DNA of 64,000 nucleotides, from contig WHUX01000089.1 in the NCBI GenBank assembly GCA_015179025.1, positions 154,715 through 218,714 on the forward strand, in the 5' to 3' direction. The notes beneath the pieces are model-generated. The model was not told the DNA's origin, made no database searches, and worked only from the letters and a program-made list of their open reading frames with translations. Position 1 is the first letter of the stretch. Each line of letters opens with the position of its first letter. This stretch comes from Terfezia claveryi. Taxonomy: Eukaryota; Ascomycota; Pezizomycetes; Pezizales; Pezizaceae. Both the position numbers and the translations under genes were made by a program. This document shows, one piece after another, positions 5,682-39,602 of the stretch.

Positions 5682-5709
5682 TCTTGCCCCAGTCTGGTTA
5701 TCTTGACCC
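5682..5709. mobile_element. Micro-insertion with 9-bp duplication
   Basis: The insert AGTCTGGTTA (5691-5700) lies between TCTTGCCCC (5682-5690) and TCTTGACCC (5701-5709), an 8/9 direct duplication. It belongs to the TAGTCTGGTT micro-insertion family. Confidence 0.55.
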
Positions 5710-5740
5710 ATTTCCAGGCCCATTCGAGGCCAATAGTGCA

Positions 5741-6553
5741 TGCACGCTCACGTCGACACTCGTGCTGTACTCCTCCATTTCAGCCGTCCAAGGGTTACTG
5801 CGCCTGGTCCTGCATCCAACCGTTCGACACAGCAGTCGAGTTTGCAGTTACCCCCCTTTCCTCCCCACACACCCCTTTTGTTTCTTCCGCACACCTTCTA
5901 TCGCCCTTCTGTGCATAATCGCACTCCTTGCAAATCTAATACATATTTCAATCATTTTTTTTTTATCTTCCTAATCTCGCCCTTTTATCATCGTTCTGTG
6001 CCAGAACTCTGACCAGATCCTCACTCCCCCTCTCCAGTTCACGCCTACGTCCAACCAACCCCCATCCCATCCCTCCAATTCATCCCTCCCTAAATACCTT
6101 TTTTTTTTTCCTCTGCTGTAAATCTTCTTTTCTTCGATTTTGACATTTAGCCAGCTTCCGCACTCTCGTTTCTTGGTCTTAGTAACTGCTTGATTATATC
6201 TTTCCCACTGTCAATCGACATCACACTTCACCTAAAACGTACCGGCTCTGCTCTTCCTTCTAGTTCGCGCTTGTCCCTCCTCTGGCGTGAATTCAAGCTC
6301 TTGATACACACTGTTCATACATTCTATCAAAGGGGCTTCCCGCAAGCCCTACAGCTCCCGAACTGGCTCCCCTTCTATTCTCCCCTGCCCCAGAGCAGCT
6401 CCCCTCTCCGCACCAGTTCCTCCATCCTCACAGCACTAGCCGAGACGACTGGACGTTGCCTGCGATAGACTCCTCGAGGCCCTCGTCTAGGAATTCACAG
6501 TTGCCATCCTTATCCGCGCTAGCTGCGGCCGCCGTCCCTTCTCCTCCATTAAG
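5741..6553 (+). promoter_or_regulatory. CT-rich ATG-free leader with non-AUG coding extension of the GATA factor
   Basis: No ATG occurs between 5741 and 6667. From the stop TGA at 6288-6290 a frame stays open to a donor at 6554 (GTTGGT) and reads like protein (SRPSSRNSQLPSLSALAAAA, then VPSPPL). The intron 6554-6675 (acceptor GCATAG) joins it in frame to the ATG-initiated exon, giving a protein of up to 372 residues if reading began at the ATT codon directly after the TGA (6291). From established knowledge as I remember it, Aspergillus nidulans areB makes several products, including one from a rare start codon and one from a promoter within an intron; this arrangement fits that. The actual start codon cannot be fixed from sequence, and an upstream spliced exon with an ATG is not excluded. 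Confidence 0.6.
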
Positions 6554-6584
6554 GTTGGTACTAAGAGTATTTTCTAATCTTTCC

Positions 6585-6660
6585 TTATCCTTCCTTATCA
6601 TAACGACGTGTCTCCACACAACAAACTTTATCATATCAATTTCCAATTCTCATACTGATA
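6585..6660 (+). promoter_or_regulatory. GATA-site cluster inside the alternative first intron
   Basis: TTATC occurs at 6585-6589, 6595-6599 and 6628-6632, ATATC at 6633-6637 and GATA at 6657-6660, all inside the 122-nt intron 6554-6675 and just upstream of the ATG at 6668. The core read by GATA zinc fingers is GATA (TATC), so this is a plausible internal promoter region under GATA-factor control. Confidence 0.4.
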
Positions 6661-6667
6661 AAGCTCC

Positions 6668-7668
6668 ATGCATAGGGCGCTGAATGTGAATGGCGGTTTT
6701 GCCATGACCTTCGCTACATCTTCGCCAGGAGCCAGCACTGCAGGTCAAGGGACAACTCCTGTAAGTTTACTTAACAAACCTTCTTTGCCCCAAACAACTT
6801 TCTACGCGTTTCACTTGAACCATAAGTAACATGTCTCTCCAGCCGATCTGCCAAAACTGTACGACCTCAACTACTCCTCTATGGAGAAGAGATGAAGCAG
6901 GATCTGTGCTATGCAATGCTTGTGGCCTTTTCCTCAAACTACATAGCCGACCACGGCCCATCAGCCTGAAGACCGATGTCATCAAGAGTAGGAACCGTGT
7001 TAAGAACTCTGGCCAGTCTGCTAAGAAGAAGGTTAGCACCCAAGCAGTCCCTTAACATCAAGTCTCCTCTGACAGACTCCCTTCAGAGCCTCTTCGATCC
7101 ACCAAGGTCGGAAAATGGCACGCCCACAGCAGGACACAGAGCCCCGAGATCAAAGTTTTCGTCTGGAATGTCTACGGGTTCTGCGTCCCCACAGTCTCGG
7201 GCAGGAACCCCACTCCCTCCTGCGTCCTCTATTGCACCCCCATCCTTATTCGAGTCCTTGGTGAACGATAGTGCCCTTACTGGCAGTTCATCCCTCCCTC
7301 CACTCAGCCTTAATCACCACTCACCAGGCTCTATATCCTCTATCGAGATGAAGCACCTTGAACAGCCACAAACTATGGAATCAATCGTCAATACAAATAA
7401 TATACTGAGGACGAGAGTCAAGGAGCTCGAGCTTGTCAATGACATGTTCCGAGCCAGGGTTCACCAGTTGGAAACAAGCGAAGCCAACCTAAAGCGAACG
7501 ACGATCACTAATCGAGAAATCGAAGCACAACTCAGGCAATGCATCGAAGAATGCAATAAGCGGGAGGACTCCCTCAAGAGAAAAGTGGAAGATTTGGAGA
7601 GTGAACTCATGGGGATTAAGGACCCTCTCGCAAGGAAGAAGCTCCGAGTTTCAGATATCACTGTTTGA
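6668..7668 (+). CDS. areB: GATA-type zinc finger transcription factor, AreB/Gzf3/Dal80 class
   Basis: Nuclear DNA-binding regulator; the class usually opposes AreA-type activators in nitrogen catabolite control. Exons are 6668-6760, 6843-7031 and 7087-7668: 864 nt, 287 aa from the ATG at 6668. The zinc finger is C-X2-C-X17-C-X2-C, from CQNC to CNACG, followed by the basic tail [21 protein letters not shown] serine/proline-rich middle leads to a C-terminal coiled coil (about 95 residues, with [19 protein letters not shown]), the leucine-zipper-like dimerisation region of this class, and a basic end (ARKKLRV). The third exon must start at 7087 (AGC CTC TTC GAT), because the nearer acceptor at 7076 leads to an early stop. 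A longer form joins an ATG-less upstream exon (to 6553) through acceptor 6675. The AreB assignment rests on finger plus coiled coil. Confidence 0.85.
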
Positions 7669-9372
7669 TTGAGCTGAGCAGCTCGGCCATTATTATTCTT
7701 TCCTATTGGCGGTTTTCATAATGTGCCCTTCCATTCCTTTTGTTGACGGGCTTGCGGAAAAGTCTCGAGTTATTAAATCATGGAAACATTTTCTTGAGTA
7801 ATGGGTCAGGGTTTTTCTTTTAATGTTTAAGTTTCGCTATGGGGGAGGCTTCTGAAGGAGTAATAGGGAGGGTTGCATCTTTCGTTTTCCTTTGTGTTCT
7901 CTTATGGATCCCTTCTCGGTTTTGCTCTTTACCTGTTTTAATTTTTTGCTTACTTCAACGCTTTCTCAGGGCCTTCCTATTTTTTCTGCGATATCAGCGC
8001 TTTTGCTTTCTCTTTCTATTTTTGTTCTCATCTCCTACCTACTTATCGATCTTACATTGGCGGTCTTAAAAAGTTCTGTTAGCTCCTTTCATTTCCTTTG
8101 GATATAATATGCTGTTTAATATCTACGGACAGACGAGCAAATACCTTCCCCTTCTTGCATTGCTATTTAGCCTGTTCATTTTTTTTTGGCTACTGTTGGG
8201 TTGAATTACTTAGATACCACTACGTTGCTGTTGCTGATCAGGAGCGCCTTTTATGTAATACTGTTGGTGGTTTTTGCTCTTTTTCTTTTGGCTTAGGATA
8301 CCCTTGGTACTACTCTCGACACACGACAGAGGGTTGATTGCTATGGTCGTTGGGTTGGGCTGGGAATGATACGATCTAATCTGGTTGATCTCGACAGATA
8401 TGCTACTGTTTTTCTTCATTGCTATAGACTTTCTTGTACTTACTGCCACTGGAAAGAGATGGGAGCTGTGGAAAGAGATGGGAGCCGTGGAATGGATATG
8501 AGATACTAGTCTAGTTGTATAAGCTACTCCTCTACAAATACATTTAACTGATTAGGATGGGAAAGTGTCCTGTTTTCCTTTCAAGGCTATACCTCTTTCA
8601 GAGTTGGTGATGTGGATTTGTGATGTGAAGACATTGAAGGTTACATCAGGGATAGTTTAGAATTTAATGACTGGCTATCATTGGTCATTACGTCACGATA
8701 GACATTGGCAGTGGAAATTTTCAGTTGCTGACGATGGCAATGTCATAGATGTCATAGAAGGGAACTAGCCTACATTTCTCTCGTCTATTGGCATCCGTTA
8801 TTTGCTTCTTTTTTTGAACCATTGGTAGGGAAGTAACCTTCACGAAGTAATGAGTATTAAAAAAAAATAAAATAAGTAGGGTCCATGTAGATGTGTAGTC
8901 CCAGGTATGATAGCCAGGAGTTACTACATATGAAAGAGCTTATCGATACTATGGGTACTTTACTTATCAACGCATAACAGTTTTCCTTATTGTTTTATGC
9001 TTCTCCGCGGCCGCGAGGACAAATTTAAAGGTCGGCGAGCCGGCGCTGGAGGCAGCCAATGGGATGAGTACTTACAACCGTCGGGTTAGTTACGTATAGT
9101 ACCGAAAAGAACATGATGATGATGATGATGTGATATTACTCCAGCCTTGCAATATATATATCTCTGAGGGGGAGCAAGATGACACTCAAAATGGTATATA
9201 AGCTACATCTACAAAATAAACAGAATACGCAATATGGACCCAAACCTGCTCCAAAAACAATCAATGAGAGTACAAAAACATAAGTACATTCTCCCTTTAA
9301 TTCTTACTTATCTCTCCAATCATATGTAGACCGGTTCCTAATCCTCATCAGCAGCCGTCCCTCCTATTTCTC
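7669..9372. other. Intergenic, no gene seen
   Basis: The first few hundred bases are T-rich and probably contain the 3' UTR of the GATA gene. A short GAT/ATG trinucleotide run lies at about 9113-9130. I see no coding sequence, tRNA or convincing mobile element. Confidence 0.5.
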
Positions 9373-9817
9373 TTAATGCCCAATCTTAATCCCGCCGCAC
9401 TCGCAAATAGCGTAATAAAAACACTCACCAGGCACAAACGTGCTATGCGAGTCGAAGATACAGACTATAGCGTCATCACAAGGAGTCAGTCTCCATATAT
9501 CATCAGCCCGATAACCAAAGGCCAGCAAAGCAAAACATCCCCAACACCTCAATGGGAGAAAAAAATCCTTATCGTTATCAGAACGCCAATGTCTTGTTTT
9601 GATTCGCCCGGGCCGGCAGTGGTGTAAAGGAGGGCTGCGAACTGGTCTCACATTGGGTATCATCACGTGCAGGGGTACTTTGCAACGATGATAGGGAAAA
9701 AACCGAAAAGGCGGAGAACAGGGGTATAGATAAGGATACAGTATCAAAAATTGCTGGTTATTTTGGAAGCTGAGAGTAGTCTCGTACCCGCTGAGAGGAA
9801 AAGCCAACAGGGTGTGC

Positions 9818-9862
9818 CGGAGGACATGTCTGGTTGGCACAAGCCCTCCTTTGCGGAGGACA
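9818..9862. mobile_element. Micro-insertion, long form, perfect 9-bp duplication
   Basis: A 27-bp insert (9827-9853), starting TGTCTGGTTGGCACAAGCCC, lies between two perfect copies of CGGAGGACA (9818-9826 and 9854-9862). It is one of the two longest members of the family. Confidence 0.75.
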
Positions 9863-9943
9863 ACAGGATTGGCGTTGCGGATTAGGATACTTAGGAAAGA
9901 TCACTTATCGTAGCAAAAGTGGAATATCTCTCCACAAATGACA

Positions 9944-9989
9944 GCTCCAATCCTACGAGAGGCTTGTGCCAACCAGACTGGCTCCAATC
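9944..9989. mobile_element. Micro-insertion, long form, perfect 9-bp duplication
   Basis: A 28-bp insert (9953-9980), ending GGCTTGTGCCAACCAGACTG, lies between two perfect copies of GCTCCAATC (9944-9952 and 9981-9989). It is inverted relative to the insert at 9827 and interrupts a QNWGIDDWS / GAVICGEIF segment of the MFS relic. Confidence 0.75.
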
Positions 9990-11101: not shown

Positions 11102-13686
11102 ACCTTTCCAACTGGCATATTTCTCAAAATGTCATCTTCTTTATGAGCGGTTTTCTGATCTCAGTTCCTTATATTCCAACGCGAAGGGTCTTCTAGTATC
11201 GCTTACTTCTCACAGCACCTGCATTTTATGCATTTCAAAATACAAAATATTTTTATTCTCTTCCTATATATGTAGTACAGTAGCTAGATACAGCGAAGGG
11301 ACGGCAAAATCAAGCTAGAAACCACTGCCCAAATCTGCGCAAATCTGCCCAAATTACCGTGCAAATAAGCCTAGAAATCACGGTCCAAATAACCCCCGTA
11401 TCCTCGTGCAAGTAAGCATAGAAATCAGTGGCTACGTTGTAGGTAGGTTTCGGGAAGGAATGACAGGAAAAAATCTCTTAAGTCCCGGGTGGCCGCATAT
11501 TGGAAATAGGGAATCCCCAGGCTGCCAGCTCCCCAATGTCGGATCAGCTTAGAACCAGCTCCCTCTATCTTAGAACTCAGCTCCCGCTATCTTAAAACCA
11601 GCCCTGCGATGCCGGATTTGAGCTCCTCCAGCTGTTGGGAAAATCTACCACGTAGCAGGAAACAGCCACATAGAGAAGAGGTGGGATTCTGGGATTGTGC
11701 TTGCGGTCCTGATGTGTACAGTAATTATACTGGCGATTGTATCGGTCATTGTAGAATTCATACTGGTGATTGTTCTGTAGGTTGATTTTGTGGGGTACGG
11801 TGATTGTAGTGGTGATTATTACCTAGAATGGTGGTTGTGGTGATAATTATGGTTTAGAGCTATAAAGGCGGAAGGCTAGGAGTTAACCTTGCAAGCATGC
11901 CAGGGGGTGTAAGCGATACAGCAAGATCATCGGTTGCCCATGACGCAAACGGTATTTGCGGAAGCACAGGAAGCACCTGAGGATCGTGTGCTTCAGGAAG
12001 CGTTATGTGGTGCGTCAGGACGCAGTTTTTCTTTCGCTGATGGAGAAAGTGACCCCCCATCCTAGGAGACCGACAGTGAGAGCCCTGATTTGCTGCTCTC
12101 CAACTAGGCAGTGAGGCCGAGAGGTTGCTATTGATAGTTGTGTAGTTGTGGACACCAGCTGATGGTTGTGAGAGCTCTTCTTGTGCTCTCAGCTCCGAGC
12201 ACAGACAGGCGCTTACGAGGCTGGCAATATGTGCTTACATACAGATCACTATCATATATAGGTGGGCTTTGGGTGAACAAGCACGAGGCTTGTGTCTGCA
12301 AGCCGAAATTCTATTGTTTCAGTCATTATGGGGATTAAGAGCCATTATTTAATTATGGACCTTTTGGCTCACTACTATCTTCCATTGTCAACATCGCCGT
12401 TGTGTGGTACCACGGTTCCCCTCTTTATATCCCAAATGAGGTTGACTTGTAAGCTAATAAGTGAGATCGGGGTGAATGAATGGAATACACCATATCGCGA
12501 ATTACTACTCTCTCGAATCCTGCGACCTTATACTTACCATGCATGTATATGCCTACAGGGAGGACATCCGTGCTGCTTCCAATCCTACACGCGACTCGAA
12601 CTACATACTCCTTACAGGTCGTCGGAGTTGCATGCATGCTTTTTTGAGCTTCACAAACGTTTCCTATCCCCTACCAGGTATTAAATCTGAAATTCCAACT
12701 CGCCTCCACGGAGTTCCTAATGAAAGTCATTAAGGATAATCAGTAAGCATTCTTTGGCTTGCTGGAAGTGCGAGGGGTAGTGCAACCAGACTAACCACGA
12801 CATCACCAGTGACAAAGTCACTAGCTTGAATCAAAGCCTTTAATTTACCGAACGGGTGCTTTCTAATGGCTGTGGAAGACAAGCTGAATACAGCACGGTT
12901 GTTGTGTCCACGGCACTGATTGCGCCGTATGGGCAGTCCACACTGACTCTGCGACCAAGTACACATATTCGGCGTATGCACCGCAACTCGCTGAGCAATG
13001 GCGGAGAGCAACTGGATCCCGCTACCAAGGCGATTTGTCATACACTAACCAATATAGCCATTTCTGCAAGTCCGGAACCTTGAATGCTGTAGCTGACAAT
13101 GTCAACATAGGCATGTACCTCTCTGGTATATTGGTACTAGTCCTTACTGTTCTGGAGGGGGGGAAGAGAAAGTGAAAGTGAAAGAGAAAGGTGGCTATAC
13201 ATATATGAGGGTAGTGGTGAAGGTGATGCGACTGTCCAAGATTACGATTTCCTAGGTCACGATGCGGCTGCTGCGAAGAAATATGATTCTAGGCTAGGAT
13301 ATGTGGGGATGGGGAGATTTAGAACAGGAGTGGTTGGCGAAGGGTGTAAAAGAGGAATGAACTATTCAGAGCAAAGTTTTTGATCATGTAGGAGCCGTGT
13401 TATGAATACTAACCATTGGAGATGCTAATTTGTATGTAAGGTCAGGGCAGGGCCAGTTAGTTTCTTACAAGCAAAGCAGAGGAGTGGGAGGGGCAAGGGC
13501 ATCGGGGTGAGGGATGGGAGGGGGGTTTTGAGGGGGTATACAGGATGGTTGGGAGGGCTTTGGATGTTCGAGAGCTGGAAGCAATGGAATTGGGAGGAGG
13601 GTGGAAGCTCAGATGAGGATAGCTTGGGCGGGGGTGATGGGGCCTTACAATGAAAGGAAATGTTGCGTGGAGACGAGTGTGGGAAG
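11102..13686. other. Gene-poor region, possible relics only
   Basis: No gene can be supported. At 11320-11420 CAAATCTGC and related words recur. At 11700-11850 there is a degenerate GTGATTGTA-like simple repeat. An eroded micro-insertion motif (TGCAACCAGACTA at about 12781-12793) has no clear duplication. Confidence 0.4.
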
Positions 13687-13775
13687 GGTGCAGTGGAGGG
13701 TGCAGTGGAGGGTGCAGTGAAGGATGCAGTGGAGGGTGCAGTGGAGGATGCAGTGGAGAGTGTAGTGGAGGGTGA
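13687..13775 (+). repeat. 12-bp minisatellite
   Basis: About seven tandem copies of the unit GGTGCAGTGGAG with a few substitutions. The unit is a multiple of three, so it reads as a four-residue repeat in every frame. Confidence 0.85.
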
Positions 13776-13790
13776 GGGCACTTATCTACT

Positions 13791-14162
13791 GTGGAGTTTG
13801 GGAAATGGGCGATGGGGACAAAAGATAGGATTAATGTGTCTTTAAGAGAAGTGGGAGATGAGGAAGAGAAATTTGGCATTGTAAGATGGCAACCTGACAT
13901 TGCTGGCAAGAGACCTAACATTGTTGAAGTGAAGCAGGGGACTATGGGTGGGGGGCATAGTACTGTGGAGGACATTGAGATGAGGTATGCAACCAAGGCA
14001 GCAGAGGAGAGTGGTACCGTGAAACCTCTTAGGGAGAAGGGTAAAACTTATATTGTTCGACAGAAGCGGTCAGCTGAAATATCGATTGGAAGGAATAAGA
14101 GGCATAAGCTTGCCATCCTGGAAGAATCACTAGTGAAGGAAGTAGGATGGCAAGTGTGGTGA
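13791..14162 (+). other. Open frame of unknown status
   Basis: A 123-codon plus-strand frame directly after the minisatellite, polar and lysine-rich (for example FGIVRWQPDIAGKRPNIVEV). I do not recognise it, and it has no clear introns. It could be a relic gene or chance. Confidence 0.2.
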
Positions 14163-14919
14163 ATGGATAATACAATTGCGAGGTACTGTGTGGGACCTAG
14201 CCTGCAGGTCAGAGCAAGTTCAATTTCGGAGCGGACAAACTTTTCAGTGAGGGTGTTGGCTGAAGCGATTACTGCGTAGGGGAAGATACTGTGATGGAAG
14301 GTGCTGTTGGTTGACCGAGGTGTGGATGAGATAAAAGTGGAGTGGGTGAGTGAGGGCATTTAGATAGGAATACATGCTCTGCAGGCAAACCTCTCTCATA
14401 GGAGGGATTAGCTGTTTATGTATCTGGCTCTGGCTCTTACTGCTCACCTCGGTAATTCATTGGATTTTATTTGGCATTGTTACATTCCGTTCTATCATCT
14501 AGTTGTCATACCTAAAAATGGGCATGGGAAGTGAATGAACCATGGGCTTGTTTTTTATTATTTGCTATACCACGAAAACTTAATGGCGCTTGAATCATGA
14601 GACTGGCGATTTGCAAGGATTAGCTCAGGGTAACGATAACATGCTGTATCTGCTAAATTGTTTCGGATTCTAAATAGAGATCAGGGTTGCTTGATGTCAA
14701 TCACGGCAGAAAGATATAGTCTCCAAAACTCCAGATACAACTAATGTTCGAGATCTCTGCTCCTTCGCCTTAGATCTCCGACTTGAAGAAGTCTGTATGT
14801 ACTCTATAGAGTGAGTTAGGAAATACCAACCAACTGACATCTACAACCATAGACTGAAGAAAACGAGACATCCCGTCTGTTCTGCTTCAGAATGGGTGGA
14901 GGGGAAGCTTGCGGAATAT
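14163..14919. other. Intergenic, nothing recognised
   Basis: No coding sequence, repeat or structured element is evident here. Confidence 0.4.
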
Positions 14920-15420
14920 CACATAGGCTGGTTGCACTGTAGCCACTCCTCACAGGTGGGGGGATAATAGGATGAACTAGCTTTCAGATCTTGGTGAAAA
15001 GATCAAGACAGGACCCCTCAATGTAATTCCAATCGGTCCAATTTTGTATTCAAGTCAGTTGAAGCGTTCAATGTAAGTACTCTGATGGACTATTAAGGAT
15101 ATTCGACCCGGATTTCTGCGCTTTTCTGCGCTTTTCTGTACTTTCTGCACTTTCTGCGGCCATAAAAAGCTACATCTTTATGAGAGGGTGTGCAATTAGA
15201 CTAACTGAAAACTTATCCTAAAGTCAGAACTGCTATTCATTGTTCCCATTGCTACCATGCTATTATCTTGCTTTTTTAATCCTAGCACCTAAACCATTGA
15301 ACTGGGTGTGTTGTTTTCTCAAACCCCCAACTTTTGTGTTCCACTATGCCATATTCCAATCCTATCTTAAGAAACAAAAGAAAAAGGGCAAGAAAGGTGA
15401 ACACAGAAGAGGACAGAAAG
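14920..15420 (-). repeat. 3' flank shared by the coiled-coil gene copies (copy 1)
   Basis: Resembles 26650-27030 (both carry TAGGCTGGTTGCA and CACTCCTCACAG) and, from about 15085, 18200-18540 (TATTAAGG, TTTCTGCGCTTTTCTG-like words, CTTTTGTGTTCCACTA). The duplicated unit therefore extends several hundred bases past the gene's stop codon. Confidence 0.65.
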
Positions 15421-16619
15421 TTAAAGCGATGGGATCGATGGCCAATCCAAAAGTTCCCCTCTAATGACATATGAATGTTTGATGTTCGACCATCTAAGGT
15501 ATGCGAGTAATGAAGCAGCAATACAGGCGGGGAAATTCGAGTTATCAGTATTGACCCTCAGGAGGTGGAAAAACTCCCATGGATGAGCACGCTCATGCAT
15601 CCAGAACCACTGAAAAATATCCTGTCGGCTTTGCTCTGCTTGGCTCTCAGAGATCATCAACTCCGCACATAGTTCATTTAAGGCTGACTTGAAAGTCTCG
15701 CACTCCTTGATGCGATCGAGCTTTGATTGCACTTTTTCGTAAAAACCCTGAGAGCGAACACTGTCGGAGATGAACTCTACAAGCCAGTTAGTTTAATTCA
15801 TATAAATCACCAAGAAGCATTCTTTTCCTTACCTAGAACATGATAAGGATTCAACTTGCCCGTATCACGAAGATACTTGTACTTAAGATCCTGATCCACA
15901 ACGGAGGGATTAGTTTCATTTAACAACTTCCAATGCAAGTACAGGCACAGAACGGTACCGCTATCTCAAACTGTTGTTTGACTCGTTAGTTGCCATCAAA
16001 GAGGAAATCGTGTTGTAACTTCGGGTACATGCCTGGTCTAGTTTATGTCTGATATCACTTCCCACCTATTTTTCACTCGTTAGTTGCCAGAGAGGAAAAT
16101 CATACTGTAACTTTGGGTACATGCCGTGTGCGTGTTAAAATTCGCCTTTCTATCCTTAATAATACCCTCGAGTAATTGCATTTTGTCGTCATGACGCTTC
16201 ATAAGGTCCTTCTATTTTTCACTCGTTAGTTGCCAGAGAGGAAAATCATACTGTAACTTTGGGTACATGCCCTCTGTAGTTCCAAATCCGCCTTCTTATC
16301 TTTAATACTATCCTGGAGTAATTCGATATTTTCTTTATAAGACTTCTATTTTTCACTCGTTAGTTGCTATCAGAGAGGAAATCATACCGTAACTCTGGGT
16401 ACATGCCTTCTGTCGTTCCATATCTGCCTTCTGTTCTCCAATCATATCCTCGAGTAGTTTGATTCTGAATTCATAAGGCCTCTTTAGGGATTCGAAAATG
16501 CACTCCATGGAAACTGGTGGCACACTGATATGGGTAAAAACATTCCTTTGGTTTCTCATCATATCGATGGTCTTCCTTCCGAGATTCAACCGCTGCAGCT
16601 GGAGCTGCCGAGAGAACAT
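15421..16619 (-). pseudogene. Cassette-built coiled-coil gene, copy 1 (one-base deletion)
   Basis: Unknown family. Exons: 16619-16407, 16345-16271, 16211-16125, 16065-16033, 15970-15833 and 15776-15421. The first four are multiples of three in length and end at a conserved GCATGTACCC that acts as a GC donor; the near-identical 59-62-nt introns end in TAG or CAG. Every GT in these introns would put the next exon out of frame. Exons 1-4 encode short charged coiled-coil cassettes (IKLLEDMIGEQKADMERQK; IELLQDSIKDKKADL). Exon 5 encodes EIAVPF and YLHWKLLNETNP, and exon 6 a helical domain (ELCAELMISESQAEQSRQ). Exon 5 is 138 nt, against 139 in copy 2; the missing base after the EIAVPF codons shifts the frame, so I call it a pseudogene. 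An unrecognised extra intron could rescue it. Confidence 0.65.
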
Positions 16620-16800
16620 AGCTAGGCTAGGTTGATATATCAATAAATTGATGTAGGTAGCTGATACAATTGTAAGATTAGAGTGGGTGTCTTTGATGTG
16701 GAGCAGGACTATAATGAAAAGTGAAGGATTAAAAAATGGAGAGGGGGGAATGGAGACTGCAAATGTATAATGCTACTGCTGCCAAGGTGTGGGATTACAT
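16620..16800. other. 5' flank of coiled-coil gene copy 1
   Basis: Similar to 19729-19860: both contain TTGATGTAGGTAGC and GTGGGTGTCTTTGATGTGGA. The duplicated unit therefore also covers the promoter region. Confidence 0.6.
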
Positions 16801-16932
16801 ATTGCAACTGTGGTTTAGGTTTGTTACCCTGATCTATCCACTCAATATCGAATTGGATTAGTAAATATTGCAACTGTGGTTTAGGTTTGTTACCCTGATC
16901 TATCCACTCAATATCGAATTGGATTAGTAAAC
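16801..16932 (+). repeat. 66-bp tandem duplication
   Basis: 16801-16866 is repeated at 16867-16932 with essentially one difference at the last base, so the duplication is recent. The unit starts ATTGCAACTGTGGTTTAGG. Confidence 0.95.
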
Positions 16933-18199
16933 ATACGAACCGACCTACTAGTACAAGTTGATGTGAGCTGAAACAGCTGATACAGTCGACTGGGATCAAT
17001 TCTCCCTTTTCCCTTCTCTATATGAGGTCTGTATGAAGTGCCCCTACCCTCACCCTAGTCTAGTTGACCCTCACCCCTTATTACCATTACCTTGTGTTTT
17101 CTGCCTTTTAGGCCATAGCTATGAGGCTGCATACCGAATGTTATATATAATAATACAATAAGGATAAAAAAAAATAAAAAAAAAAAAAACCTGTTTACCA
17201 GCCTATATACCTTATTATCTAGTTATCCAATACATCTTCTCCCACTTTCTCTATCACCTACATCACAGGTAATACTTAGTATACGCAATGGGCTGTGGTG
17301 TTTTACAACCTATTTCTGAAAGGATTTCCCTGCGAGGATCATATTTCCCAGTTCGTGCGTGGAAGATCTCGGATATATATAACATACCAATATCTCTGCC
17401 CTTGCAACTGCAATTGCGCCAATATCTGGAAATATACCTTTATTTATTTTATTAGGCTTTTCCGAGTCGGAGCCTAAGGCTATCAGACAGTCCCGTTCCC
17501 TCATCTCAGAAGACTCGGTAAGCCCAAGGAACAACGAGCTACATGAACGCCCTATCTCCCGAACCAAACAAAAGCGACTTATAATTACCCAAACTAGTTA
17601 ATATTAGTTACCCTGAACTCACTCCTCTATACTCTAAATTTTACTCTTTTTTTTTTTTTTTTTTTTTTTCCAAAACTACTACCACTACTACCATTGCCGC
17701 TGCCTCCTCTATCTTTTATTCTCTCCTCCTTTTGCCCCTTCTCCCAGCTGCGGGTCTAGTATTAGGGGGGAGGGAGCCCCCCATGACTGCCCCCATTAGT
17801 TGGGGGCCTCTAGAAAGATGAGATTAAGAGCTAAAAAGTGCTCCAACCTCTCCCCCTCCCCTCTATTTATCAACCAAGTAACTCAACTTAAACCTTTTTC
17901 TTTCTTCTCAATAACTTTGCTATAAATTAGACAAAAATACCAAGTTGAAAAAAAAAAAGCTCAAGTTGACCTATATTGGTCAATAAATTAAATTCAATCC
18001 CATAATATTTAGTATATCCTTTTCTCCGAGTCAAGATTCAGCTCTGTAGTTAAGTAAATCTTTTTTAAGAGTTCTCTTATAAAAAATTTTTAGCTTAAAA
18101 AAAACTCTTTTCTCATATACTCGGTCAAATTTACCCTACCTTTTTCTAAGGCCAATGGGAAGGGTGATTCCTCACCGAAGTCATCTTGAAATTACCAGC
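16933..18199. other. A/T-rich intergenic region with homopolymers
   Basis: Contains A-rich runs at about 17167-17190 and 17950, and a T run at about 17647-17670. No gene is seen. Confidence 0.4.
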
Positions 18200-18330: not shown

Positions 18331-18359
18331 CTGCTGTCCCAACCAGACTACTGCTATCC
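18331..18359. mobile_element. Micro-insertion with empty paralogous sites
   Basis: The insert CAACCAGACTA (18340-18350) lies between CTGCTGTCC (18331-18339) and CTGCTATCC (18351-18359). The paralogous positions of the flanking repeat, near 15230 (AACTGCTATTCATTG) and 26825 (AATGCTATTCGTTG), lack both the insert and the duplication. Confidence 0.75.
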
Positions 18360-21150: not shown

Positions 21151-23030
21151 GGATGCCCGACCAAGAAAGACCAGACCGCTATCCTTATTTCTCCTACTGC
21201 CCGAATCTTTGTCCCAATTCCGGCCCCCTCACAAATTGTACACTCCCCCGCTTGAGGATCTGCTATTGATTTGGCGAAATATCCTCCAAAGCCCTCGATA
21301 CAAAGCAAATCCTCGTAGCTGGCGGGGACGGAGAGGGGCAGGAGGAACACGGTGAGGAAGAGGTAACGGCGGGTAGGAGGAGAAGGATGAGAACGCAGGA
21401 GAGGTTCAAAACTTGAGGAAGTTTGCCGGTTCCGAAGCTGGCAACCGGTGGAGCTGGATCTAGTGGGAAGGCGTCACTTATCTTGATCTTCGTATATTTT
21501 ATATGGAGTCCTCACGGTCATCATCACAATTATCTTGTCCTACACGGATTGCATGTCTTCATACGTATGCCAGTTAGTGTCTAGAGAGCTGGGTCGTATT
21601 TATGATTACAACGGGCGCAGCAGATTGGATCCATAAGTAGATGTCGGCGGATACGGTAGGGGTGAGCGCATCAATAAGTTACGCGATCTGACATCTTAGA
21701 GAGCAAAGCTGAACCAAAGTACATTTCGTTTCAATTTCAACAATAATGTGGTCTCATGACCTCCCTCATCTCTCACATACGTGGTAAAAAAACCCAATGA
21801 TGGATGAAAAATTAAAATTAAAACTCCTCTTTGAAAGAAGGAAAAGATACTACAAAATTCTATCAAAGTATATCATCACACACCTCTCGGAGCTATATAC
21901 AATGCACGCTCTTGTACACCTCCGGTGCATCATCCTCAGTGCCCTCAGCTTCATGCACGAACCAGCTCTTAAAATCCCGAAGAAGGTCTTGGTGATCTAT
22001 GTAGCCCATTAGGCAAACGCTTGATAAAATGCGCCTTCTCCTGGCGACGAGGAAAACGTAGACTGCTGTTCTCATGCCACCGCCTTGAGAACCTGCACCC
22101 CGTACATGCTCCGCAACTCTTTGCCCAGTCAAGATTTCTCCAGTTTAAACTAGTAGTCTGAGATCTTTCTACGCAGCCGCAAACAGGACTCTCCAATCAA
22201 GACGCCCTATGTTTAGATGGTTGCCGTTTTGGGAAGTTACACAAGGGAGCCCCTTACCATTTCTGGTATCAAGCAGACTATGCATACCTACTTTTCAGCT
22301 GGTTGGCACCAGACTAACCATTTTGAGTACTGCATTCCTACTAACAAACCACATCGCTAACATACATAGAAAAAAAGCAATAGAAAATGTAGATTAATTT
22401 TCTAATAGAATGCAGTAATTATGCTAATCCACTTTGGTAGTCTCGTCATGCGCCAACTGATTACGCATTTTGAATATGCTCAACAATATCCAGAACTGTC
22501 ACAGATCTGGGAGAAGGCACAAAATTAGTCTGGTTGGCACAAAATATGGAAAGTTGCTGGGAGCAATGCTCGAAAAGTTGAGACGCGCGGAAGATAACAC
22601 TTCCTACGTTCAAATAGCACTCTTAGAATCCAAATGCAACTCTACGCTTTCTGGGATACTCCTCGCTGGGTAGTGTATTGCGGGATAATCTCTAACAGCA
22701 TGCTCCTACCAAAAATGAACCAAGTCTGTAGTATGGCTCTCTGAGAAGGAAAGAGACCATACAGTAAGCATGTAAGCCAAGCAGGACGCTGAGGTTAAAT
22801 ATTTCCACTGAGCAATTATAGCAGGCACCTCAATCACAGTATATATTATAAATACCGACTAAAAAGCTCTCCCTGCATGGATATTGTGGCTTTTAGTAAA
22901 AATCCCCAAAAGGCCTTATACATAATATATGATACTTAAATGGTGATTCCAAGTAATACCAACACCTAGACTAGTCGCCAAAGAAATCTTCCCCAGAAAT
23001 ACTAACAAAACCTTCTATCTCCTTTTGAAG
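21151..23030. other. Gene-poor region
   Basis: Nothing firmly coding. On the minus strand at about 21985-22115 a frame contains CGACTGCRFSRRWHENSSL, which could be part of a lost gene, but I cannot assign it. A double-ended trace of the micro-insertion family is at 22297-22317. Confidence 0.3.
22517..22545. mobile_element. Micro-insertion, perfect 9-bp duplication
   Basis: The insert TAGTCTGGTTG (22526-22536) lies between two perfect copies of GCACAAAAT (22517-22525 and 22537-22545). Because the family consensus continues GGCA, the right boundary could be shifted by up to three bases. Confidence 0.7.
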
Positions 23031-23887: not shown

Positions 23888-24485
23888 GGTTGGTGGGTAT
23901 ATTTGAAAGATGAGATATGGTGATAGACGTGTGAGATCAATACGTGCACGAGAGAAACTGAACCTGGAACTTGACACCGCGGAGATAGGAAGAAGGGAGA
24001 GGAGTGCAAATATAGGTAGTCAATGAATAAATAGATGAATGAAGCAAGGGCTATCTATACAACAATTGTAACAGGTGCAGGAGGTATCTAGTATCTGTGG
24101 GCCTACTCCGTAGGCCTAGATCGATATCCAAAGGATTTGGGTATATCCACCACTGTCACCCCCTATCCTCCCTTAAAATTATCCATAGGACGTGTATAGC
24201 AGGTAGCTATGACTCAAGCTCCTTTTCAGCTTCCCGGGGGACATGAGTGAAGCGGCTGCGCAATGTTGTCGCAAAGATGGTTTCTTCAGGTTGCACAAAG
24301 CCGTGATTGTGGAGAGGTGCTGTGCGCTTCCGCACATCCGTACATGCAGTACATATGTACATGCACTGTTATGTTCCTAGCAGACGCAGATCCATGTTTT
24401 GCCCCTAGTCTCATGCCAAGACCCTTTTGCCCCGTGAATCGAAGCTGGCCACCAGCCCCCTAACCCTGGCGTTGAGGGTAACCTA

Positions 24486-24800
24486 CCGTAGTAATTGGCA
24501 ATTAACGCCCCCCTTCTCACATAACGCCCCCCCTATATTTAGAGAGTGTAAGTCTAACTATTCTACATATATCTTAAGTACATATGTAACGCTATCTATG
24601 TGTAGTTAGGTACTAAGGAGGGACAGTGCCATAGCATCAGAAGTTCCGCCAGACTACAGAAGTTCTAGCTAGATTAGTATCAGCCAAAAGATCAGGCTGG
24701 TGGTTGAGTCGTAGTCCATCTGGCCTAGCGCACCCAAGAACTCTAAATATAGGGGGGGCGGTATGTGAGGAGGGGGGGCGTTAATTGCCAATTACTATGG
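24486..24800. mobile_element. 315-bp MITE with long TIRs and TA duplication
   Basis: The left end CCGTAGTAATTGGCAATTAA and the right end (reverse complement) CCATAGTAATTGGCAATTAA begin inverted repeats of about 65 bp that run through poly-C blocks to TATATTTAGAG. Both ends are flanked by TA (24484-24485 and 24801-24802), as in Tc1/mariner-type elements. There is no coding capacity. A micro-insertion sits inside it at 24647. Confidence 0.8.
24638..24665. mobile_element. Micro-insertion inside the MITE, perfect 9-bp duplication
   Basis: The insert CGCCAGACTA (24647-24656; TAGTCTGGCG on the other strand) lies between two perfect copies of CAGAAGTTC (24638-24646 and 24657-24665). Confidence 0.7.
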
Positions 24801-24850: not shown

Positions 24851-24883
24851 AGCCCTACCATGCCAACCAGACTAAGCCCTAAC
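24851..24883. mobile_element. Micro-insertion, 8/9 duplication
   Basis: The insert ATGCCAACCAGACTA (24860-24874) lies between AGCCCTACC (24851-24859) and AGCCCTAAC (24875-24883). Confidence 0.6.
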
Positions 24884-24901: not shown

Positions 24902-24930
24902 GCCACCGATTAGTCTGGTTGGCCACTGAT
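24902..24930. mobile_element. Micro-insertion, 8/9 duplication
   Basis: The insert TAGTCTGGTTG (24911-24921) lies between GCCACCGAT (24902-24910) and GCCACTGAT (24922-24930). It is opposite in orientation to its neighbour at 24860. Confidence 0.65.
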
Positions 24931-32479: not shown

Positions 32480-32605
32480 CATGGTCAAAATCAGGAATGC
32501 TCTAAACCATGATTACCCTCACATCCTGTCAAAATCTACAATCTACCACCCAATCTACAATAAAAAGAAGATCGCCCAAGTGGTCTTGAGCTATGAATAC
32601 ACGTA
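32480..32605 (+). other. Repeated open exon-like block, copy 1
   Basis: Starts with ATG (MVKIRNALNHDYPHILSKST, then IYHPIYNKKKIAQVVL) and runs into a good donor (GTAAGTAC). The same block recurs at about 34180-34305. No downstream exon could be found. It may be the 5' exon of a second gene carried, incomplete, in the array unit. Confidence 0.3.
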
Positions 32606-33090
32606 AGTACATGGCCTAAATTTAATTACATGGCCTCCCACGCCCCCAAAGTCACCGAACTTGTATAAGGTATTCAAAGCTTCCAGGGTTGAAATCGATT
32701 AGCCCAAAGGCGATTTTCCCTACTTTAAACCGGTGATATATGGTCAAAGTTATGACTGTGGAGTATATGGTACAAGACATCTATATTTTGGGTCTACATA
32801 TAAGGCATATGTAATTGTGCTTTTAAAAGGATTCTGAGTTCAAATAAAAACTCCATCTCAAGCGCAATCCAGTACCTCACGTGGGGAGCCGAGCATCAGA
32901 TATTGCATTCATAAGTAGCCAGTAATCGCGAGAGGGTCAATACTTTTGTAGGACATGCAAAGTCCAGTCCACATCTCATGCTCAACCCGGATCTCATCTT
33001 CTAGGTCCTGCATACTTAGCTGCATACGTGCATAGCATAGATAGATAGCTTAGTCAGGTATGTCGGGCTTGGCAATGCCTATAGGGTCAT

Positions 33091-33888: not shown

Positions 33889-34776
33889 GTTCTGTCGGTC
33901 TATAGATGGCTTAGGGAGGGTGCTTGCTGGTTTTTCAATGGTAGATCAAGGTGTTTGCTGGTTTGTATTACAAAAGGTGCTTAAAACGGTACGGCATTAG
34001 ATAATCAATTCTGTTACTCCGTCACATCTGTACTTCTCAGTAGCAAAAGCGAAGCTATGCGAACGACTAGAGGCTTGGTATGAGACTAGTACTTCTCATA
34101 CACTTGTGAATCAAAAAACTTGATAACCGCCCCTGCAATCCCCCCCGGCAGCCAGCAACAACACGTCATATATCCAATCATGGTCAAAATCAGGAATGCT
34201 CTAAACCATGATTACCCTCACATCCTGTCAAAATCTACAATCTACCACCCAATCTACAATAAAAAGAAGATCGCCCAAGTGGTCTTGAGCTATGAATACA
34301 CGTAAGTACATGGCCTAAATTTAATTACATGGCCTCCCACGCCCCCAAAGTCACCGAACTTGTATAAGGTATTCAAAGCTTCCAGGGTTGAAATCGATTA
34401 GCCCAAAGGCGATTTTCCCTACTTTAAACCGGTGGGTGATATATGGTCAAAGTTATGACTGTGGAGTATATGGTACAAGACATCTATATTTTGGGTCTAC
34501 ATATAAGGCATATGTAATTGTGCTTTTAAAAGGATTCTGAGTTCAAATAAAAACTCCATCTCAAGCGCAATCCAGTACCTCACGTGGGGAGCCGAGCATC
34601 AGATATTGCATTCACGAGAGGGTCAATACTTTTGTAGGACATGCAAAGTCCAGTCCACATCTCCTGCTCAACCCGGATCTCAACTTCTAGGTCCTGCATA
34701 CTTAGCTGCATACGTGCATAGCATAGATAGATAGCTTAGTCAGGTATGTCGGGCTTGGCAATGCCTATAGGGTCAT

Positions 34777-35448
34777 ATGCCGGGCGACCTAGACTTAGAG
34801 AATACATGCTCAAACATGCTTCGTCTGTTTAGACAACCGGCGGTCCGCCTGGCTATACACCGTATTCCACGACGTATTCAGTTTAGGGGATTTATAAACG
34901 GGTCGGATAATGAAGAGGGCTTATTCATACCAGGGGGGAAGCAAGAGGAAGAAGCCAGACAAAAGTGGGCTCCGAATAACTATAATCATATGGTAAGTCA
35001 CTCTACATGTAATGGGTTACTGGCTCGGATAGTGGGATCATGTCGATAAGCTGGATGACCGTGTCGCTGGCTTGACGAAGGCATGTATCATATTCAATAG
35101 TAGATGAAGCTTGACTAACGATGGTAGGACTTGGGAGATTTCAAAGGCGATGTTGGCATGAGACTAGGCGATGTCAACAAAAGTCTTGGAGAGCTTGCTA
35201 CGAGGATGGAAGCAGGATTTGGGAGAATCGAAACGAACATGGAAAAGAACTACGGGGAGCTTAAAACGAGTATGGAAAAGAACTACGGGGAGCTTAAAGC
35301 TGATATAAAGCCACTTGTTTGGCAAGTCCGTATCCTACTGGGAGGGGCGTCGCTGGTATGTATAATATATTACTCGTGAACTACCAGTTATTTCAATGCT
35401 GATATCCATTAGGTTATAGTGTTTCTTGTGAAAACTTACAGTCCCTAG
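34777..35448 (+). CDS. Small coiled-coil protein, array copy 3 (truncated)
   Basis: Exons: 34777-34992, 35033-35080, 35128-35355 and 35413-35448. Two MEKNYGELK units in exon 3. The last exon keeps VIVFLVKTY and then meets foreign sequence (SP, stop) at the array breakpoint, so the C-terminal ~30 residues are lost. Intron 1 is the 40-nt form without a branch site; intron 2 (35081-35127) has the GC donor. Probably not functional. Confidence 0.45.
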
Positions 35449-35646
35449 ACAAAAGTCTTGGTAAAACATATGATCGGCAGCAACGAAGAGCCTCACACGC
35501 GATCCCTCCCTACCAGGAAAAATGAAATATCTCAATTACCAACCGACAGAACTATATGAAAATTAAAATGAAGGTAGAAGAGATATAGGAGAAGCCACAG
35601 ACTGAAAGATTTGTGGAGTAAATACATGATGGTGGAGCAGTGACAG

Positions 35647-35790
35647 TTAGTAGCGGGTATACCAGCCCTTAGAACGAATTACAGCAGCAACCCGGTCAGG
35701 CATACTTTGCCAGAGGGGCTCAAAGACTCCAGGGCCAAGGGAGTCCCAAACAACTGGTAGGACCCTACGCCATACGTGCCCGAACTGCTT
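35647..35790 (-). pseudogene. Tc1/mariner-type transposase, C-terminal relic
   Basis: The minus-strand frame HVWRRVLPVVWDSLGPGVFE, then PLWQSMPDRVAAVIRSKGWY ending TRY-stop, matches the conserved end of Tc1/mariner transposases, where a tryptophan precedes SMPxRVxAVIxxKG. Nothing of the DDE core remains upstream. Confidence 0.6.
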
Positions 35791-36360
35791 CTGGCCCTGT
35801 CATCAAACTCATTCCGTGTGGTGCCACCTAGGGCCCGGGCCTCCCTGATTTAGCCTAGATCTTTTGTCCGTTCACTTATCAGCGGTGGTGGAAGTGTGAC
35901 TGCAGCGACACTTAGGTTACCGTCGTTTAGTAGTGACGAGACCACTTTAGCAACGGGCCCAAGGCGTGGCTTTTTAAATCCCTTTCCTACCGCAGAATCC
36001 TGAGACTCTCTATGGTCACGACCACAAGAATACCCCTCCCACCCCGATAAACGCAAAGGCAAACATAATCTGTGGCATCAATCGATCTGGCCCCATCACA
36101 GAGCCTATTGGTGATCTGCCGGATAGAAAGCATCCTGCGCCTGACTTGTCGATATCATCGCATGCTCCATTTGCAAGGGGTTAAACTCCCGGGGTTCTCA
36201 ACCTTTTCCCCGGGGTTAAGATTCATGATCAAATCTCTAAAACAATGCCCTGACGTTCTGCTTAAATACGTGGGGAAATGCTTTAGCTAGTGAGATACGC
36301 GTGGCTGGTGGAGATGCCTTGTCACGGGGTTATGGATTCCTTAATGTGGAACTCGATCTC

Positions 36361-36393
36361 AGATCAACTGTGCCAACCAGACTAAGATCAACT
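36361..36393. mobile_element. Micro-insertion, perfect duplication
   Basis: The insert GTGCCAACCAGACTA (36370-36384) lies between AGATCAACT (36361-36369) and AGATCAACT (36385-36393). The match extends to ten bases (AGATCAACTG) if the first G of the insert is counted as duplication. Confidence 0.75.
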
Positions 36394-37397
36394 GGCTGCC
36401 CGCTCATACAAAGCTTGTTCCCAGAACTTTCCAATGGCCCTAATTTCAACCTCTCCGAGCCCAGTCTTGAGGACTTCTACCCAAATATCAGAGTTTAGAA
36501 GGCCATGCCTCTGCTCTTGGGCTCGGTTCTTTCACGACACCCAACCGTACGGTTAGGTGCGGTGAAATAGGTTGCGCTGCTGGTGCAGTTTACTGACCCG
36601 CGGCGAATCGAATAGCAGCCTGGATATGCAGTCGTCTCTGCAGCTTTGCGATGGTGAGGGGATAAAAAAAGCAGACCTGGTACTTGTAAATCTATAGTGT
36701 GTATTCACCGTCAGGGCATGCTCGATCGACCCCAGAGAAAGGTGTGGATTTTTCCAATTTTTCCCGAAAATTGCCTCGGAAAGTAGCCAGATCGATTGAT
36801 GTCGCAGATATTGTTTGCATTTGCGTTATGCTTAGGATTTCGCGGTAGTAAAGGGATATAAAAAGCCAGACCTTGGGCCGAGTGGTCTCGCCACTGCAGT
36901 TCCGCGATGGTTACTGAATGTCTCTGACGGACGGATGACTGAGTCCCATGTTTCTTGAACGCTTTCGAGTTCTAATACTCCTGCCCCCACCATACTGCAT
37001 TGAGCCAATTTTTTATTTCAAAGGGCCGGGACCACAGGCGTGATGGAGGGGTTATGCGAATATACAGAGGTAAGTTTCTAAGGGTAATACTCTTGAGTGT
37101 GTGGATGCAATAAGAGACGTTATATGGAAATAGAGATATACAAAATATAGAAGATATAATTATAAAGGTCTGACTGTATAGATTTTTGTCAAATGGAGGT
37201 TTGTCTGTCTGCCATGAACGGAGTGAAAAGCTGTGTCAGGACATCCATCGAGGTCGTGAAGGTTGATGTCAAATTACAGTCTCCCCCTTACCCTTATATT
37301 ATTCGGACACTCATAGCTGAACAAATGATTCACGGCACAATGCTTGATCAATTTCACTGCCTTTCCCATTCCAGAATCCAGAGCCGTGGTAGCCCCT

Positions 37398-37427
37398 GGT
37401 ACAGGTTAGTCTGGTTGGGGTACAGGT
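37398..37427. mobile_element. Micro-insertion, perfect 9-bp duplication
   Basis: The insert TAGTCTGGTTGG (37407-37418) lies between two perfect copies of GGTACAGGT (37398-37406 and 37419-37427). Confidence 0.8.
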
Positions 37428-39571
37428 CTCAACCTCGTGTGGCGGACCAAAGGTTGGCCATCACATTCTGGGATAGATATGCAGTGTTCCCAGTACTTAA
37501 ATACCGATAGGTCCAGGTTTACAATATCGAGATTTAGCAAGAGTTGATGATGAGCGGCTGTTGGAATGTATATGTGTAGGTAGGGTGGATAGAAACTTGA
37601 AAGAAAGTGAATGCATCCTTGCGGTAAGGTGCGTATGAGGCAAGATGGTTTTGTGATATCGACTCCTCAACCTAACTCTCTCACAATCTTCACTTTCTAA
37701 CCTATATCATATGCAGAGCCCCGAGACTAGGACGGTGTTTGCGGTTTCGCATAGGCGTTAAGCGGTGGAAGTTACCCTGAAGCACCTCGCTTCACTGAAC
37801 CGCTATTGAGCGGGACCATAGGAACAGCCCCAAGTTAAGAACTACTTAACTAGAAATCCCAATATATTTAATCCTCAAATGAATTAGACCCTGAAACTTC
37901 TTCCAATTCTATCATTCCCGCCCCTATTCATTTAAATTGCTAGCCCGAGATGTAGAGCCCAGAACATTCCCCTTGTAATTACAATTTACCAGTACTATTT
38001 ACCCAAGTGTGTACTGGAGTTCATTCAGACTTATCCTTTTCTCCTGCACGCCGATGGCTACAACCTGGGTGAGAGCCTCAGTTGTAGAAGAGTGTGTTCT
38101 CTAGTTAAGTAGGTTTACCTTAGTCCCTTCTACTCGAGCGTTATATTTGCATGGCCCTACCGAGCACTAACTGGGTGAATACTTAGATTATAGCTTCAGA
38201 CTGTAGGTATTGCGGTAGCTGAATCATTTCGATTAACCCACGCCGACGCTACACATTTGTTGTGATTGGGCATGGTTTTGATGGTTTTCAATTTTTACCA
38301 CTTCTCAAGAGAGCGAGTTTCTCTGGTCGAGGGGGGGGGTTCCGCTTTGGGAGAGGAATGTACGTAACATGTGGGGGTGGGGAGCGACGAACTAAGTAGC
38401 TTCAGGGTGGCTAGGTTTTTCAAGAGGCACAGCACAGCCCTGGAAAATGTCACCTAAACCCGACCAGAGTTCAGGGTAACCCAGCGTAACTTGCACAAAT
38501 GCTTCGTCTCTAGGTTAGGAGCATATCTACCTACCTAGGGAACGAAAAGTGTTGAGATAATAAACCACAAGTAATACCACAATTAATAATACTAAAGACT
38601 CGTACTAGTGCCTACTCAATCCCTCAATCCCTCATGCACGCTTCGCCACTTAGCGCTAAACATCGAATCCCAAAACTTCTTATTAAAGCCATAGGGCTAT
38701 CCCGAGGTCCTCCCCCCAAAGAAATATCTTCAAAACGTCCAAACCGCCAGCTGCTGGATACATGCAAGTCCCACATAACATCTACCCTCAATCAAGCAAG
38801 CTGTCCTCGTGCTCCCATACACATGCATAACCATGCATGTCGTTTCTATTTATACTTGACCCCCCCGGCCCATGTTAACTGCTTACTGTGCATCTAGATC
38901 TATACAGATATATATCTCGACGTCAACATTTGATGTCGTACGAGGCGAAGTAGTACATAACGTGCGTTTAATTATATATCCCCTTGCTGCAGTTGAGCGC
39001 GTACGGCATTTATCACGAGACTGAAATTTCTTTTTTTATTTCTTCAGCTGAAAATATTAAAATTAATAAACAGCGAGGAATATCTTTCCACAGGAGGTAT
39101 CTCGATGCCCAGCTGCAGGTGGTCTGGTTGGCAACATCGAATAAACAACCAATATACACCGCTAAAAGCACTATCGAATATCTATATAGCAGCATGCGAA
39201 TCTAAATAAATACCAACGCACCGATACCCCCCGTGCAATAATGCCAGTGTGGATGTACAAAACAGTGATATACAATTAATCTAGATCTATTACCCTCGCA
39301 ACAAAAACACCTAAAGTACTAGTAACCACTATACGCGTACCGCGTTTCATAAAACTGCTTCACTTTACCACCAATGACTTAATATTACCGATCACCTTGC
39401 TACTGATATTGAAGGTACCCGGTTCCGTTCCACATATCGGCTGATACTATATATCTTCAATTACAGTTCGCAATAATGCAACCATCATACACCCAGGCTG
39501 CCACATGTAATGTATTTATCTGCACATGCAGTTCCAGATAGAGTTGCTGCTGAGACATACAAGGGAACATG

Positions 39572-39602
39572 AAGAAACTCTAGTCTGGTTACAAGGAAAC
39601 TC
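39572..39602. mobile_element. Micro-insertion, 8/9 duplication
   Basis: The insert TAGTCTGGTTACA (39581-39593) lies between AAGAAACTC (39572-39580) and AGGAAACTC (39594-39602). Confidence 0.65.

Follow-up and report, generated by a model that had tools for sequence, protein, structure and literature searches.

A 64,000-nucleotide stretch of the Terfezia claveryi genome (contig WHUX01000089.1, here C783:154715-218714; hereafter the window), in an assembly of 72,558,070 bases and 794 contigs, carries a family of short inserts that start at a constant end, TAGTCT, stop at differing places and lie between direct repeats of exactly 9 bp. These inserts are insertion events and not ancestral sequence, and the constant length of the target site duplication (TSD), a paralogous empty site and inverted ends on intact copies identify them as derivatives of a class II DNA transposon. 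We propose, as an even call, that they are end-joining scars of very short palindromic non-autonomous DNA transposons that were cut in the manner of the P element. The main rival is the one-ended insertion of end fragments.

Inserts bounded by 9-bp duplications

The word at the insert end is abundant throughout the genome, where the 12-mer TAGTCTGGTTGG has 4088 exact copies against 34 for the reversed word, and a 20-mer of the insert end has 495 against none for its reversed control. Outside this genome the 20-mer was absent from viral contigs and was found once in prokaryote genomes (257 billion bases), which by our own estimate is about chance level. Of 108 TAGTCTGG sites scored first, 58 have a 9-bp direct repeat, compared with 146 of 5000 random positions. 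A further 177 distinct sites with the exact 12-mer were then scored, sites too close to the end of a locus being skipped and a match of at least 8/9 being counted as a TSD; the repeat is perfect at 73 and 8/9 at 27. When the same sites were scored with a 9-mer from 11 bp further up, or with the flank of another site, just 4 and 2 passed. The original prediction had taken the constant end, variable end and fixed 9-bp duplication as marks of insertion rather than of a promoter motif, and this view holds well beyond the window, as 100 of 177 sites against 4 and 2 in the controls makes a regulatory reading untenable.

The window has 44 TAGTCT sites, and at 14 of them the 9-mer that abuts the left side of the word recurs, at 8/9 or better, 6–60 bp to the right; 119 permuted 6-mers taken together give 76 of 3762. 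Chance may account for two of the 14, which enclose 50–51 bp. Extrapolation gives approximately 2200 TSD-flanked inserts with the 12-mer genome-wide, and the 12–15 inserts of all kinds in the window scale to roughly 13,600–17,000, a figure drawn from one window; counted as scars, these would be about 2200 for one end word and perhaps more than 10,000 across all end families. A search made without the word returned 255 exact 9-bp repeats spaced 8–60 bp apart, of which 47 enclose an insert starting TAGTC on either strand, although these loci are enriched for such inserts and the proportion is no genome rate. The inserts sit in contigs of up to more than 1 Mb.

The duplication is exactly 9 bp long: at the 100 good sites the two copies agree in 90–99% of cases at each of columns −9 to −1, and in 22% at column −10. 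The duplicated 9-mers (93 distinct sites, 49% G+C) show no strong base preference, with few A at the last position (11/93). At one junction the duplication starts directly at the TAGTCT border, an exactness that is itself set by the choice of sites by their TAGTCT end. The opposite junction varies, as the insert stops at differing places, and the first one or two bases of the adjoining TSD are sometimes lost; among the 27 repeats of 8/9, the mismatch falls at −9 in 10 and at −8 in 5, the two bases that adjoin this junction. A further 63 of the 177 sites have the full 12-mer with an unrecognisable repeat (at most 6/9), and 14 have a repeat of 7/9. We infer that the missing repeats reflect trimming before end joining rather than mutational decay, because decay would have hit the 12-mer too. 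The variable junction thus looks like an end-joined repair junction, and some inserts finish in TA, CTA or GACTA ahead of the right TSD, like leftovers of a second end.

A direct view of insertion comes from a 31-bp insert in locus L013, whose paralog L025 is 97.8% identical over 89 bp and has a gap of 40 bp, the sum of the insert and one 9-bp TSD. This is one clean case; a second pair, L040 and L037, is approximate, with a gap of 21 bp instead of 24. A third pair (L099 and L007) was tried as an empty site and was not usable.

Two trivial origins can be weighed on these data, a conserved regulatory motif and an artefact of library preparation or assembly, and we find either scarcely credible. 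In their favour are the high copy number of a short word and the fact that Tn5 library chemistry also makes 9-bp duplications. The duplications vary from site to site, however, and are almost absent from the controls, some of them carry mutations, and the insert ends fall into several families; the flanking duplications rule out a regulatory motif. The insert end also differs from the Tn5 mosaic end, and a library artefact is ruled out by nested inserts together with an insert that lies within both terminal repeats of two copies of a Mutator-like element (MULE).

Insert lengths, hairpins and two-ended copies

One-ended inserts are approximately 8–36 bp long and two-ended inserts reach 54 bp. 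The lengths are bimodal when taken from 52 distinct sites (the 93 distinct TSD sites minus those from the 20-mer or two-ended searches, with an exact 12-mer required): 30 are at most 17 bp, none are 18–22 bp, 21 are 23–36 bp and one is longer. The short class spans 9–16 bp and peaks sharply at exactly 15 bp, which accounts for 14 of the 22 inserts between 12 and 22 bp, and TAGTCTAGTTGGCAC inserts are 15 bp long at two further sites. The gap at 18–22 bp does not hold for all families, as TAGTCTC inserts occur at 19 bp, besides two of 16 bp that lie in copies of a single repeat. The insert family had been described as 10–28 bp long with a single start; it is real, and both its length range and its starts are wider, with TSDs at 26 of 80 TAGTCTC sites, 9 of 23 TAGTCTGGC sites and 8 of 50 TAGTCTA sites, against 1 of 26 TAGTCTT sites. 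For the start TAGTCTGGTTGC, 26 of 57 sites have a TSD, with two-ended copies counted from both sides. Some inserts lie inside others, and at L159 two inserts sit among three copies of the 9-mer CGTCAGATC, as a tandem or a repeated insertion at one site.

Many of the long inserts run down one arm, pass through a small loop and continue a few bases up the complementary arm, while others stop at or before the loop, which is often GTA and elsewhere GAAA, GGTA, TGTT or another sequence. In 40 distinct long one-ended tails the mean stem is 2.9 bp, compared with 2.1 bp for shuffled tails, and none of 1000 shuffled sets reaches 2.9. Of these tails, 32 come from the 177-site set and 8 were hand-picked from other end families, with at least one suitable tail left out; many share an arm and are not independent.

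Complete copies are also present. The 11-mer TAGTCTGGTTG faces its complement at 139 places with 10–40 bp between (pairs of 32–62 bp) and at 51 places with 50–80 bp between, and the reversed control gives none at either spacing. At the shorter spacing, an outer TSD was seen at 15 of 45 distinct places read, drawn from among the matches listed of the 139. The loci read, including 20 places added by choice from the two-ended matches (those of the 139 among them), hold 22 two-ended inserts of 19–54 bp with a TSD of at least 8/9, where L186 is a nesting artefact; terminal inverted repeats are thus seen on TSD-flanked copies. In L116 two 15-bp ends are joined (15+15). L056 contains a perfect 51-bp palindrome between perfect 9-bp TSDs (GCAAGCGAG) that folds at −30.6 kcal/mol (z −14); in a full-palindrome search with AAGCC arms, L056 alone matched the 31-bp core of its arm family with up to three mismatches. 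Where the two ends of an insert are unlike, unlinked ends were considered and rejected, because the flanks of L190, L191 and L192 reveal an insert lying inside a second one; L089 is a possible mixed-end case that a one-base change would also explain. The copies of a repeat in C143, C222, C238, C362, C655 and C124 share a pair of facing ends (TAGTCTGGTTGGCATGCAACCAGACTA or a close variant) and could serve to date inserts.

The two-ended copies bear on an improbable reading in which a conventional element of hundreds of base pairs or more, with TAGTCT terminal repeats of approximately 28 bp, left the inserts as its scars and the palindromes are fused remnants of those repeats. By our own reading many two-ended inserts can be parsed as n+m arm pieces of up to about 28–30 bp, several arm families share the outer end, and it is bigger elements that usually make footprints. 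Against this, no outer TSD was found at 21 two-ended pairs of 72–101 bp (21 of the 51 found, 20 of them hand-chosen; the genome-wide search stopped at a spacing of 102 bp), and loci L001–L043 and the window contain no TSD-flanked pair of facing ends more than 53 bp long, with one mismatch allowed in each end. Moreover, many one-ended tails cross the same GTA loop into the complementary arm, which fresh fusions would not repeat.

The hairpin also invites the thought of retroposition from a small hairpin RNA whose 3' end is constant and whose 5' end varies, which we regard as very improbable. Read in reverse, the inserts do have a constant 3' end and a 5' end truncated near the hairpin, like 5'-truncated retroposed copies. 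However, the TSD is exactly 9 bp, in contrast to the variable duplications of target-primed reverse transcription, the listed inserts have no A tail, and both ends are equivalent in the 15+15 and 51-bp copies. An Rfam scan of the window found no family at its cut-off.

Excision of a very short palindrome as a possible origin

Under the scar model, the source element would be a palindrome of approximately 41–54 bp, perfect or nearly so, in which a small loop separates two facing arms that each end in TAGTCT. Its transposase would stagger the target cut by 9 bp and, at the element, would cut one strand exactly at the border of element and TSD and the other some 15 nt inside. Were both ends cut, one flank could keep up to 15 nt of arm while the other was trimmed flush to the TSD, yielding inserts of at most 15 bp; if both residues were kept, the 15+15 form would result. 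A cut at one end would leave a residue of at most 51 − 15 = 36 nt, and trimming near the centre of the hairpin would give the 23–36-bp class. The break would then be sealed by end joining. The limits of 15 and 36 nt are the upper edges of the two length classes, the first within a base, and the 63 of 177 sites that lack a recognisable TSD are what trimming of the flanks would give. The original prediction had offered excision scars or an ultra-short mobile sequence as alternatives; the data favour a blend of the two, in which scars or abortive insertions derive from an ultra-short palindrome such as the 51-bp copy. With some doubt, we extend this to a nuclear transposon that would consist solely of two transposase-binding ends as a perfect hairpin of 41–54 bp, moved by a putative transposase with a 9-bp target stagger and a 15-nt internal cut and leaving thousands of scars.

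Several observations weigh against the scar model. Two-ended copies are rare relative to one-ended ones, so that nearly every insertion must have been excised, and no locus that we read has an intact element beside a scar. Arms that lack one G stop at 14 bp in two cases, so the 15-nt stop may be bound to the sequence rather than measured. Lengths of the long class peak at 28–31 bp and not at 36, so that further trimming at the hairpin has to be assumed. There is no clear enrichment of second-end residues (TA in 8 of 83 one-ended inserts, where base counts predict approximately 5), the variable junction shows weak microhomology (at least 1 bp in 10 of 22, with about 5.7 expected), and neither a transposase nor an autonomous element with TAGTCT ends came to light. 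Finally, many TSDs are intact, unlike excisions in rice, which mostly show flank deletion or filler and are clean in 8 of 94 cases (PMC4423477).

Direct one-ended micro-insertion would dispense with excision, and we judge it unlikely. Here, in a manner similar to tagmentation, transposase-bound end fragments or single-stranded hairpins would be joined to one strand at a 9-bp staggered cut, with the other side closed by end joining, so that a full element was never at the site. A second end is present in only 4 of 53 unbiased TSD rows (3 distinct, as L116 is counted twice), and the 139 two-ended pairs compare with 4088 copies of the 12-mer, with an outer TSD in only a third of those read (15/45). 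The clean empty site of L013 and L025 is also in keeping with one-ended insertion, and the sharp 15-nt size would suit an end protected by transposase. Tn3-family elements are bacterial, with long inserts and 5-bp duplications, and in these respects differ from the inserts. They nevertheless resemble them in having one constant end and, as documented for one-ended transposition, one variable end (PMC4133298). On the other side, the perfect 51-bp palindrome and the near-perfect two-ended copies with TSDs mean that complete elements did insert, and there is no known supply of free end fragments. Some long inserts, moreover, end past the loop in the second arm, as a free end fragment need not. 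The same junctions follow from the scar model and from one-ended insertion; the sole difference is whether the site was ever occupied by a full element.

Among known systems, the Drosophila P element has a TSD of 8 bp rather than the 9 bp seen here, where no two-ended copy exceeds 54 bp. The likeness would be in the cut, which in the P element is exact at the 3' end of the transposon and lies well inside the terminal repeat on the other strand, with a stagger of 17 nt (PMC7776569). A P-type cut predicts scars that keep the TSD and a piece of the end, and the length mode here is 15 bp (14/52). Miniature inverted-repeat transposable elements (MITEs) share the non-autonomous structure, inverted ends, TSD and high copy number, and the two-ended copies fall within the definition of a MITE. 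They are smaller than usual MITEs, approximately 41–54 bp, with no unique inner part and arms that meet at the loop, and most copies are one-ended. Ultra-short mobile palindromes are known as mitochondrial GC clusters and double-hairpin elements (PMC2800124), which differ in being mitochondrial, whereas the inserts lie in a 72.6-Mb assembly and have an exact 9-bp TSD. Taken singly, footprints, MITEs, P-type staggering and one-ended transposition all have precedents; a search of literature titles and abstracts returned no description of such inserts, or of a 51-bp palindrome that moves as a nuclear transposon and leaves directional scars by the thousand.

MULEs had been suggested as the link, as 9-bp duplications are typical of them; the 9 bp of the inserts lies within the MULE range of 8–11 bp. 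TSDs of 8–9 bp are given for Muta1 (PMC5225508) and of mostly 9 bp for the Foldback-type Tm1 (PMC3169594). In yeast, Muta1 excision gives predominantly deletions of 1–4 bp if the donor has no TSDs, whereas TSDs favour precise excision (PMC5225508), in contrast to the end residues of 8–36 bp seen here. The genome has at least 21 matches to the MULE domain (PF10551), and seven of the 21 copies were followed to the edge of the terminal repeat, none of which has TAGTCT ends. A few bases in, these edges are AAACCTTTGAAAT-like in C790, C173, C112 and C60, AACATTTGAAAT-like in C773 and CGGACTGACTC in L044 and L045. By eye, C173, C60, L044 and L045 have a TSD of 9–10 bp at the edge, so MULEs with such duplications do occur in this genome, while C790, C773 and C112 have none there and their true ends are less sure. 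Four more matches, partly read (L054, L055, L210 and L211), gave no TAGTCT end pair, and 10 of the 21 were not read to their ends. The MULE link is therefore not supported so far. The insert within terminal repeats mentioned above is the 11-bp TAGTCTGGTTG, identical in the MULEs of C790 and C773, each of which has it, along with the duplication, in both repeats. As side observations, the copies in C790, C773 and C173 (L099–L102 and L107–L108 with L047, L049 and L053) have inverted repeats of approximately 2 kb made of many internal repeats, and L044 and L045 are compact copies of about 2.6 kb ending in CGGACTGACTC, with 9-bp TSDs read by eye as TTGTTGAGG and TGCTACCTA.

Other transposase families were searched by profile. 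The P-type profile PF21787 gave no matches in this genome and was uninformative, as the control genomes were silent too, and the Merlin profile DDE_Tnp_IS1595 (PF12762) gave none where the control matched in 1 of 14. Genes of KDZ (Kyakuja-Dileera-Zisupton) elements are present (9 matches), and for two of the three groups the TSD does not fit, being 7 bp for Kyakuja and 8 bp for Zisupton (PMC12730594), against 9 bp for the inserts.

Insertions of 8–36 bp are a recurrent class of mutation in this genome. Past excisions of transposons are hard to count, since what remains of them is usually a few bases or a messy deletion, whereas scars that are long, directional and bracketed by TSDs could allow thousands of single events to be read, sized and dated, and the outcomes of end joining to be studied from sequence alone. 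If the scar model is true, the scars would be a readable genome-wide record of past jumps. It would also test the minimum size of a eukaryotic transposon, as a 51-bp palindrome has room for two ends only.

Inserts and genes of the window

All eleven inserts of the original prediction were confirmed at their positions, with perfect repeats at 9827, 9953, 22526, 24647, 36370 and 37407 and 8/9 repeats at the other five. The start that they were said to share is exact at eight, and the end base is changed or lost at the remaining three, which were read by eye. These are the 10-bp insert AGTCTGGTTA at 5691–5700 (+), which has a changed end base, starts CAGTCTGG and lies between TCTTGCCCC (5682–5690) and TCTTGACCC (5701–5709); the 27-bp insert TGTCTGGTTGGCACAAGCCCTCCTTTG at 9827–9853 (+), which starts TGTCTGG between two copies of CGGAGGACA; and the 28-bp insert CAGTCTGGTTGGCACAAGCCTCTCGTAG at 9953–9980 (−), which starts CAGTCTGG between two copies of GCTCCAATC.

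The 11-bp TAGTCTGGTTG occurs three times, at 18340–18350 (−), at 24911–24921 (+) and at 22526–22536 (+), the last with the TSD GCACAAAAT, six bases of which are, by eye, common to the continuation of the arm. The 15-bp inserts are TAGTCTGGTTGGCAT at 24860–24874 (−) and the modal form TAGTCTGGTTGGCAC at 36370–36384 (−). The others are the 10-bp TAGTCTGGCG at 24647–24656 (−), the 12-bp TAGTCTGGTTGG at 37407–37418 (+) with the TSD GGTACAGGT, and the 13-bp TAGTCTGGTTACA at 39581–39593 (+).

Four more short inserts had been missed. Three are 12 bp long: TAGTCTCGTACC at 9777–9788 (+) and TAGTCTCATGCC at 35155–35166 (−), each with an 8/9 TSD, and TAGTCTAGTTGA at 17056–17067 (+), with the perfect TSD CCCTCACCC. 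The fourth, the 19-bp TAGTCTCATGCCAAGACCC at 24406–24424 (+), has the perfect TSD TTTTGCCCC and belongs to a second end family. At 34039–34088 (−), 50 bp starting TAGTCTCATACC lie within perfect 9-bp repeats and may be a larger member of that second family or chance.

The genes of the window look fungal and include those for a DUF7082 protein, a zinc-binding dehydrogenase and a copia-type gag. The last belongs to the remnant of a copia-type retrotransposon at 59611–62139 (+), in which a gag_2 domain is followed by a frame that by eye resembles an integrase.

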